Shown piece by piece: positions 45,235 through 47,488 of a DNA stretch of 64,000 nt. Every line of letters begins with the position of its first letter. Within the stretch, counting starts at the first letter, position 1. The position numbers were made by a program, and so were the translations under genes. This DNA comes from Candidatus Cybelea sp. (GTDB lineage Bacteria > Vulcanimicrobiota > Vulcanimicrobiia > Vulcanimicrobiales > Vulcanimicrobiaceae): positions 1 through 64,000 of the forward strand of contig DASXFZ010000059.1 in assembly GCA_036489315.1 (NCBI GenBank). The letters are read 5' to 3'. Below the pieces are notes generated by a model. It searched no databases. It saw nothing but the letters and a program-made list of their open reading frames with translations, and had not been told where the DNA came from.

Positions 45235-45238
45235 TCAA
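45209..45238 (-). promoter_or_regulatory. Sigma-70-like promoter of rho
   Basis: -35 TTGAAC (45233-45238), 18-base spacer, -10 TATAGT (45209-45214) on the minus strand. The -35 lies in the stop-codon region of mpg and in the loop of a 7-bp inverted repeat GCCCGGC/GCCGGGC (45223-45229, 45239-45245). Confidence 0.6.
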
Positions 45239-45834
45239 GCCGGGCTCAACCGAGCCGGTCCGCTAACAAACGGGCTCCCGGCCGCGTAGAATCGCAGCCG
45301 GCGCTGTGCGGCTTTCGTGAGACCGATGCGGCAACTGAGTCGCACGCGCGCGGGAACGCCGTCCGCGCGGGCCAGCCAAAGGCTGCGATCGGCAAAGAGA
45401 TCGGTTCCGTCGAACGCCCGGTCGATCGCCAGCGCTTGGCAGAGCCGGCCCGGGCCGCGGCAGAGATCGCGCATCTCGCCGGCGCCGCGCCGCCGCTGCA
45501 TCAACGGAACTCCGAGAAGCGGCTCCAGAGCGCGAATCAGCACTCCGGCACCCTCCCCGTCGGGCTCGCTGGAAAGGTTGAAGCAAAACGACGTGCCGTA
45601 GATTTGGTAGACGTAGGCGCGATGAGGCGGTCCGAAGAGCGTGGCGTTGCGAGGACTCCGCCCGGTGAAGGCGTGGCACGCCGGGTCGCCCGGCAGGTAG
45701 GCCTCCGTTTCGACGATGCGGCCGGCGACCGTGCCTTCTTCGCTCTCACGCACGAGAACGCAACCAAGAAGCGCGCGTGCTAACGCTTTGGTTTCTACCG
45801 GGAGATCCTGCGCGCCGAGGCGCACCAGCTTCAC
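45235..45834 (-). CDS. mpg: DNA-3-methyladenine glycosylase (Mpg/AAG family)
   Basis: A 199-aa base-excision repair enzyme removing alkylated purines. Motifs are GRIVETEAYLPGDPACHA (catalytic Glu), GTSFCFNLSSE and the CRGPGRLCQAL segment. It is second in a two-gene run behind a promoter with a LexA-like box, which suggests DNA-damage control. Confidence 0.94.
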   Translation of the reverse strand: MKLVRLGAQDLPVETKALARALLGCVLVRESEEGTVAGRIVETEAYLPGDPACHAFTGRSPRNATLFGPPHRAYVYQIYGTSFCFNLSSEPDGEGAGVLIRALEPLLGVPLMQRRRGAGEMRDLCRGPGRLCQALAIDRAFDGTDLFADRSLWLARADGVPARVRLSCRIGLTKAAQRRLRFYAAGSPFVSGPARLSPA

Positions 45835-46250
45835 GCTGCTTGGTTCAGCGCTACTTCGGCCCTCGCCCTTTGCATCAAGTCGTCAGTCGGTCCGGCCGCT
45901 ATTTCGAAGTTGCCGAGCGCATTGAGCGCACAGCGCAAACGGACGTAAGGAAGCACGAGATTATCCGGCACCTCGGCGCGGGACGCCACCTCGCGAACAA
46001 AGTCTTCATCTGCCAGCACGAAGCGGACACCGGTGACGCCGAGCCGATGAATCGCTCGCGCAACGACCACCAGAGCCGCATAGCCCGCAGCACGCTCGAC
46101 CGACGGGGAGATCTGCTTGATCCGAAATGGAAGGCGCAAAACGTCCTGAGCGCCGGCGCGTTGGAAGGTTGCATAGGCCACGCCCCCTCCCGCCGGCCCG
46201 ACGGCGTATCCGATCGCTACCTCGCTCGCCCGCTGCCCCGATTTTTGCAT
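45831..46250 (-). CDS. Uncharacterised protein, possible RNase H-like fold
   Basis: A 139-aa protein, first gene of the mpg operon and overlapping mpg by ATGA. An N-terminal strand pair (AIGYAVGPAGGGVAYATF), a helix with SVERAAGYAALVVVARAIHRL, and a VRFVLADEDFVREV strand-helix resemble the RNase HI/reverse-transcriptase-like fold, including one Glu and one Asp in suitable places. The first expected acidic residue is absent, so catalysis is doubtful. I do not recognise a named family. Its control by a LexA-like box implies a role under DNA damage. Confidence 0.7.
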   Translation of the reverse strand: MQKSGQRASEVAIGYAVGPAGGGVAYATFQRAGAQDVLRLPFRIKQISPSVERAAGYAALVVVARAIHRLGVTGVRFVLADEDFVREVASRAEVPDNLVLPYVRLRCALNALGNFEIAAGPTDDLMQRARAEVALNQAA

Positions 46251-46270: not shown

Positions 46271-46299
46271 ATTTTATGCGAACGTATGTTCGAGGTCAA
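46271..46299 (-). promoter_or_regulatory. Promoter of the mpg operon
   Basis: -35 TTGACC (46294-46299), 17-base spacer, -10 TAAAAT (46271-46276) on the minus strand. This is a near-consensus sigma-70 promoter, and the -35 overlaps the stop codon of the GT4 gene upstream. Its spacer contains the LexA-like box. Confidence 0.7.
46279..46292. promoter_or_regulatory. LexA-type SOS operator
   Basis: CGAACGTATGTTCG matches the Gram-positive LexA consensus CGAAC-N4-GTTCG exactly. It sits between the -35 and -10 boxes, so bound LexA would block RNA polymerase. lexA itself is not in the window. Confidence 0.7.
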
Positions 46300-47438
46300 G
46301 CGATCCGAGCCGGGTGCATCAAGCTAGCGTAGAGGCCTAGGGTCCGAGAGATCTGCTCCTCGACGGAAAAGCGGGCAGCGGCGGCGCGAGCGTCGGCGGC
46401 ACGTCGCGGGTCCGGCAGTAAGGGCACCGCCGCCAAAGCCGCCGCGAACGCCGCCGGTTCGGCCGCGACGAGTACGCCGGCCGCACCGAGCACGTCGCGG
46501 TTCTGCGGCGCGTCGGCGGCGATCACCCAAAGCCCGGCCGCAAGCGCCTCTGCCTGCACGATGCCTTGGGTCTCGGTGATGCTGGGCATCACAAATGCGT
46601 CGGCGCTGGCATAGAGGTCGGGCAGCCGCGCCTGCTCGACCAGCCCGAGAAACCGGATCCGGTTCTCGAGCCGAAGCGACTTCGCACGGCGACCCAACTC
46701 CTCGCGCAACGGACCATCGCCGGCGACCGCCAGGCACGCCTCCGGATCGCCGGCTCGAGCGAGGGCTTCGAAGAGAATCTCGATGTTCTTTTCCTTCGCG
46801 AGGCGTCCGACATAGAGGAAAAGCCGCGAGCCGTTTCGGGCGCCGGCCTGCCTGCGCAGTTCTTCACTGCGCCGCCCGGCGGCGAAGCGCGCGACGTCGA
46901 TTCCACTGGGAACGGTTTCGACGCGCACGGTTACGCCAAGCTCGCGCAGGCGCGCCGCCATCGCCGGCGTCGGTGCGATGACCGCGTCGGCGAGGTTTGC
47001 GAATCTTCGCGTCAGCTGCGATGCGGCGAAGCGCGTGGCGTTTGCTTCAAACGGTACGTAGTGCGCGTAGGCCTCGAGCTGCGTGTGGTACGTGTAGATC
47101 AGCGGCATCCCGTAGCGGCGGGCGTAGCGCATCCCCATCCAGCCGGTGATAAACGGCGAGTGAACGTGAACGACACTGAGCCGTTCGATGACCGATTTGA
47201 CTTCGCGCCGGCTGATGAGGGGCAGCGTGAGGCGATACGGAGTGGCGGGCAGCGGCAGTGATGGAATGCGGACGATCCGGCTCTCCGAACCGGTCGCGCC
47301 GGCCATCCTCGGGGCGAAGCAAAAGACCTCGTGGCCCGCCAGCTGCAGGCCTTGCGCCAGCGTCTCGACCGAGGCCACGACGCCGTTGACGACGGGGCGG
47401 TAAATTTCGGTAAACAGCCCCACGCGCAGGCGCTCCAT
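46296..47438 (-). CDS. GT4 glycosyltransferase
   Basis: A 380-aa GT-B transferase. The N-terminus MERLRVGLFTEIYRPVVNGVV and the VHVHSPFITGWMG segment resemble diacylglycerol or phosphatidylinositol-type sugar transferases. The C-terminal motifs are LYVGRLAKEKN, VAGDGPLREEL and the EX7E region ITETQGIVQAEAL. The likely product is a glycolipid, but the substrate is not determined. I chose ATG 47438; the frame extends 26 residues upstream. Confidence 0.85.
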   Translation of the reverse strand: MERLRVGLFTEIYRPVVNGVVASVETLAQGLQLAGHEVFCFAPRMAGATGSESRIVRIPSLPLPATPYRLTLPLISRREVKSVIERLSVVHVHSPFITGWMGMRYARRYGMPLIYTYHTQLEAYAHYVPFEANATRFAASQLTRRFANLADAVIAPTPAMAARLRELGVTVRVETVPSGIDVARFAAGRRSEELRRQAGARNGSRLFLYVGRLAKEKNIEILFEALARAGDPEACLAVAGDGPLREELGRRAKSLRLENRIRFLGLVEQARLPDLYASADAFVMPSITETQGIVQAEALAAGLWVIAADAPQNRDVLGAAGVLVAAEPAAFAAALAAVPLLPDPRRAADARAAAARFSVEEQISRTLGLYASLMHPARIA

Positions 47439-47488
47439 AGGCGGAATCTCTTCGCTTTGCTGCCCGAGGCGCCCGGTTCCGGAAAAGG

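Follow-up and report, generated by a model that had tools for sequence, protein, structure and literature searches.

A putative LexA operator conserved class-wide upstream of a predicted RNase H-fold gene in Vulcanimicrobiota

Here we report that a palindrome lying between the promoter hexamers upstream of ORF139 in Candidatus Cybelea sp., a soil organism from a little-studied bacterial phylum, the Eremiobacterota, almost certainly serves as a LexA operator (SOS box). Judging from comparison of related loci, its conserved SOS target is ORF139, which encodes a small protein with a predicted RNase H fold, and mpg, the gene for DNA-3-methyladenine glycosylase, is a frequent downstream partner. 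The joint explanation that we favour, with a probability of roughly 0.9, is a LexA operator set in a sigma-70-type promoter, damage-induced production of ORF139 and Mpg, and an ORF139 protein that does not cut. The operator type itself is ordinary. What we believe to be new is an outline of the SOS regulon for the Eremiobacterota/Vulcanimicrobiota, the first of its kind; finding a Bacillus subtilis-type box, together with lexA and a yneA-like gene in divergent orientation, outside the Gram-positive bacteria bears on the age of that arrangement. The LexA box is no less constant at ORF139 than at imuA and recA, and a gene that lies outside the curated families and has kept its predicted SOS control class-wide is a candidate, and a testable one, for a new effector of the DNA-damage response.

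The window, by which we mean the whole stretch of 64,000 nucleotides that was analysed, carries the promoter on its minus strand, where positions 46299-46271 read TTGACC-TCGAACATACGTTCGCA-TAAAAT and the 17-bp spacer is filled by CGAACATACGTTCG (Table 1). A preceding sequence-only reading had described this promoter with a box in its spacer and had claimed a full match to the Gram-positive LexA consensus. Both descriptions are borne out: a separate promoter scan recovered this very site, matching at 10 of the 12 hexamer positions, the two arms of CGAAC-N4-GTTCG are exact, and the centre fits RNRY. No other exact CGAAC-N4-GTTCG occurs in the window, where about 0.02 would be expected at its base composition. 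The start codon of ORF139, an ATG, follows 28 bases past the end of the box, while on the other side the -35 element overlaps the stop codon of a glycosyltransferase gene. This gene is a conserved neighbour on the same strand and, being upstream of the box, does not belong to the regulated unit.

Table 1. Features at the ORF139 locus, in window coordinates
Feature	Position	Strand	Remarks
-35 element TTGACC	46294..46299	-	sequence reading and promoter scan
-10 element TAAAAT	46271..46276	-	17 bp from the -35 element
Putative LexA operator (SOS box) CGAACATACGTTCG	46279..46292	-	both 5-base arms equal the consensus
ORF139, 139 aa, predicted RNase H fold	45831..46250	-	homologues in 104/149 genomes of the phylum
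mpg, DNA-3-methyladenine glycosylase	45235..45834	-	PF02245 3.5e-61; NF002003 above cut-off
GT4-type glycosyltransferase gene	46296..47441	-	ATG taken at 47441; longest ORF from 47516

Conservation of the box was read at 86 ORF139 loci, with genes in the other loci called by a simple codon model on draft genomes. The box is exact in 85 of them and has one mismatch in the remaining locus, against no exact box, and typically 3-4 mismatches, in shuffles of the same 86 upstream regions. These loci share ancestry and do not represent 86 independent events; with ORF139 proteins diverged to 22-60% identity, however, unconstrained intergenic sequence would have diverged as well. The surrounding architecture is retained to a similar degree: hexamer spacing is 17-18 bp in 79 of the 84 promoters measured, the centre fits CGAAC-RNRY-GTTCG in 76/84, and TTGA starts 6-9 bp ahead of the box in 81/84. 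No homologue from outside the class appears among the matches listed. A search with an alignment of eight closer ORF139 members found the gene in 34 named contigs, the majority of which bear the label Candidatus Eremiobacterota or Vulcanimicrobiota, and the box is exact in all 34; the ORF139 protein of the window, used alone as the query, gave no matches in named contigs. Two contigs titled Rhodospirillales bacterium (L199 and L202) also hold the ORF139 locus with its box and probably come from mislabelled genomes.

The genome holds one lexA, identified by the TIGR00498 equivalog (2.2e-68) and both Pfam domains (LexA_DNA_bind and Peptidase_S24). Its product has the Ala-Gly site and the Ser/Lys residues, and in the DNA-binding domain it shares 63% identity, across 62 residues, with an approximate reference sequence of B. 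subtilis LexA. Two boxes, CAAACATACGTTCG and CGAACAGGCGTTTG, each with one mismatch and 60 bp apart, occupy the region between lexA and a short, divergent LysM gene (L016:1096-2165; G000 C57), and boxes within one mismatch precede lexA in 39/39 class loci with enough upstream sequence. The short LysM protein has a hydrophobic N-terminus and matches PRK14125 (YneA) at 9.8e-12, below the cut-off; 39 lexA loci proved to hold a gene of this kind, always in divergent orientation to lexA. YneA is an SOS division suppressor, and the lexA-divergent arrangement matches that of Bacillus. Ten lexA promoters from outside the class contain no CGAAC-N4-GTTCG within one mismatch; two of them (L168 and L170) have TGAAC-N4-GTTCA, a possible variant with the same GAAC-N4-GTTC core.

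The same box recurs before other genes of the presumptive regulon. It stands as CGAACGTACGTTCG upstream of ftsY-recA-recX (L017:398-2973; G000 C12) and is present in 30/30 class loci, 29 of them exact; the region directly before recA has no box in this genome, where recA would be controlled from 1.08 kb upstream, at the ftsY promoter. One genus includes three genomes with a box directly before recA. Upstream of imuA-imuB the box reads CGAACATATGTTCG and is exact in 30/30 (ImuA itself was recognised by NCBIfam at 4.2e-16, below its cut-off), and upstream of the class II ribonucleotide reductase gene nrdJ it reads CGAACACGCGTTCG, with 24/30 exact and three more with one mismatch; shuffled controls of the imuA and nrdJ upstream regions gave no exact match. 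An exact box also lies 122 bp upstream of mraZ in the division cluster (L030:5046-5059; G000 C49), but is found in only 11/30 genomes, which indicates both that parts of the regulon vary and that the conservation test can fail. A search for lexA and a scan for the box thus found lexA present and no different box before lexA or recA, and the SOS/LexA reading is supported by a canonical lexA and by the same box before lexA, ftsY-recA, imuA and nrdJ, here and in relatives. These boxes likewise uphold the earlier proposal that this organism, presumably a diderm from what is generally known of the phylum, uses a Gram-positive-type LexA site. The box-bearing nrdJ (L034:2-3091; G000 C26) has intein and LAGLIDADG matches, and its homologues from other genomes give piecewise matches, suggesting that the inteins vary.

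ORF139 of the window has no match in Pfam or NCBIfam, and RVT_3 matched weakly in two of 44 family members, with a best value of 0.0011. An AlphaFold2 model built on an alignment of 35 natural homologues (mean pLDDT 88, pTM 0.84) has the element order b-b-b-a-b-a-a-b-a, and its top structure matches in Foldseek and VIA-align 2 are RNases H, among them 3hst_B (7e-7) and 3aly_A (Z 14.5, rmsd 2.7 over 129 residues, 12% identity). On the strength of this model we are confident in assigning ORF139 an RNase H fold. The predicted fold, size and element order agree with the RNase HI family (3aly, 4e19 and the N-terminal domain of Rv2228c, 3hst), from which ORF139 differs in its identity of 10-17%, its mostly missing catalytic acids and the lack of a Pfam match. 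F42, D81, Y102 and C107 are invariant. A profile comparison with E. coli RNase HI (approximate sequence) by hhalign yielded no usable alignment, and equivalences to the catalytic positions of RVT_3 were read from the motifs E-Y-x-A-L and N-x-x-A-D-x-L-A. On this reading, the position of the expected catalytic Glu holds Gly, Ala, Ser or Thr, with one Ile, across the 44 members, and that of the last catalytic Asp holds Arg in 43 of the 44.

Two readings would deny that the box is a LexA site. Coincidence within a promoter might be argued from the whole genome (3.09 Mb, 64 contigs), where the regulon was read via pattern searches only: these returned 19 exact palindromes against 11 for a reversed-pattern control, so that an exact match alone is weak evidence, and nine of the 19 have centres other than RNRY and several are intragenic, so that at any one site the motif by itself is no proof. 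The box in the window stands above chance because of its placement in the promoter, its RNRY-fitting centre and its conservation; exactness at all but one of the ORF139 loci despite the divergence of the protein, and its absence from shuffled promoters, reduce the prospect of a chance palindrome to almost nothing. Many regulators bind palindromes, and the site could alternatively be the operator of another repressor, distinct from LexA, that shares the GAAC-N4-GTTC core. That the same box occurs twice before lexA, and class-wide before recA, imuA and nrdJ as well, makes this very improbable, as does the DNA-binding domain of LexA, which resembles its counterpart in B. subtilis, where LexA recognises CGAAC-N4-GTTCG (PMC3091678).

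Two further readings accept the operator and dispute what it serves. The sequence-only reading had placed an mpg operon under DNA-damage control, and in its strongest form this would make mpg the real SOS target and ORF139 a mere leader, the operator having evolved for damage-inducible alkylation repair. The gene order is in keeping with that: mpg directly follows ORF139 in 71 of the 86 loci, and in the window the GTG start of mpg overlaps the TGA stop of ORF139 as GTGA. Yet no mpg was detected in G080 or in any of the ten g11 genomes (in all, 18 of the 117 genomes of the class gave none), g11 being a genus, and the ORF139 loci read from g11 and G080 keep the exact box nonetheless. In the regions read from family f3, mpg lies about 1-9 kb off behind opposite-strand genes, and in the f3 genomes read (L283-L287) ORF139 and its box stand alone, followed by opposite-strand genes. 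Moreover, none of the 14 regions read upstream of a stand-alone or second mpg gene contains an exact box, three of them having a one-mismatch match somewhere in 700-800 bases. A box kept with ORF139 where mpg is missing or distant, with no exact copy at the stand-alone or second mpg genes read, belongs to ORF139, and we hold the primacy of mpg to be quite unlikely; the reading of SOS control for the operon stands, but the emphasis on mpg does not, the box tracking ORF139. The other reading leaves the operator as it is and makes ORF139 an active RNase H-type nuclease. Its RNase H fold, matched over most of its length, would allow this, as would an invariant D81 in the place of the catalytic Asp after strand 4 and the presence of D18 in 25 of the 44 members. 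However, the 44 sequences share no invariant acid besides D81, the DEDD set is incomplete, and a single invariant acid together with the replaced Glu and last Asp renders a working RNase H site unlikely. We accordingly give an active nuclease little credence and regard ORF139 as probably a pseudo-RNase H and an undescribed core SOS gene of the class.

For the favoured explanation, a LexA operator controlling ORF139 and, through it, Mpg, the site, the promoter position, the conservation at ORF139, lexA, recA, imuA and nrdJ, the lexA gene and the predicted fold were computed here; LexA binding, cleavage and induction at the ORF139 promoter we infer from the LexA family, and we likewise infer repression and the co-translation of ORF139 and Mpg. 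A dimer of LexA sitting on the spacer between the two hexamers would block access of RNA polymerase; upon DNA damage, RecA filaments would trigger self-cleavage of LexA and free the promoter, leading to synthesis of ORF139 and then, by GTGA-coupled translation, of Mpg. By its position in the operon, mpg is probably co-induced as the partner of ORF139, and alkylation repair is likely to be under SOS control in this genome through operon membership. As to what ORF139 does, the role that seems likeliest to us is binding, with no cleavage, of a repair partner or of a nucleic acid structure (a hybrid, an R-loop or the DNA of a stalled fork), although we rate this slightly below an even chance. More speculatively still, ORF139 could be the founder of a class-wide family of SOS effectors with a dead RNase H fold, switched on when LexA is cleaved and often coupled in translation to an alkyladenine glycosylase, which would recognise R-loops, hybrids or stalled forks and channel them to repair uncut.

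The B. subtilis LexA site has been described as CGAAC-N4-GTTCG (PMC3091678) and the same motif, CGAACN4GTTCG, for Gram-positive bacteria generally (PMC3323433), while LexA motifs vary widely between phyla (PMC8565304, PMC7739468). The box described here has the identical palindrome and spacing, with the RNRY centre in most ORF139 promoters. The LexA boxes of cyanobacteria have been described as resembling the B. subtilis ones, so a Gram-positive-like box in a diderm has precedent; the cyanobacterial form RGTACNNNDGTWCB is a related 14-bp palindrome from a diderm phylum, but its half-site is GTAC, whereas the half-site here is GAAC, as in B. subtilis (PMC3091678). With Gram-positive SOS systems the present regulon shares a core of lexA, recA, an error-prone polymerase cassette and the YneA-like LysM gene divergent from lexA; it differs in its occurrence in the Eremiobacterota/Vulcanimicrobiota, in reaching recA via ftsY and in the addition of ORF139-mpg and nrdJ. 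The Mpg of the window is a full-length match to the Mpg/AAG family (PF02245) above curated cut-offs, and is set apart by its place in a predicted LexA-controlled operon. A literature search, with most subscription papers outside it, found no description of a LexA-controlled mpg operon and no paper on LexA in the Eremiobacterota/Vulcanimicrobiota.

Several other palindromes of this genome were considered and set aside. Sites that do not fit RNRY, on contigs C8, C10, C13, C48 and others, are mostly intragenic and probably due to chance, and the extra sites returned by the looser pattern GAACRNRYGTTY are mostly intragenic or in unclear contexts. A box on C53 has no clear target gene in the surrounding stretch. 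Exact boxes also occur in two regions resembling phages or mobile elements, at L031:2639-2652 (G000 C14) and L018:2001-2014 (G000 C60).
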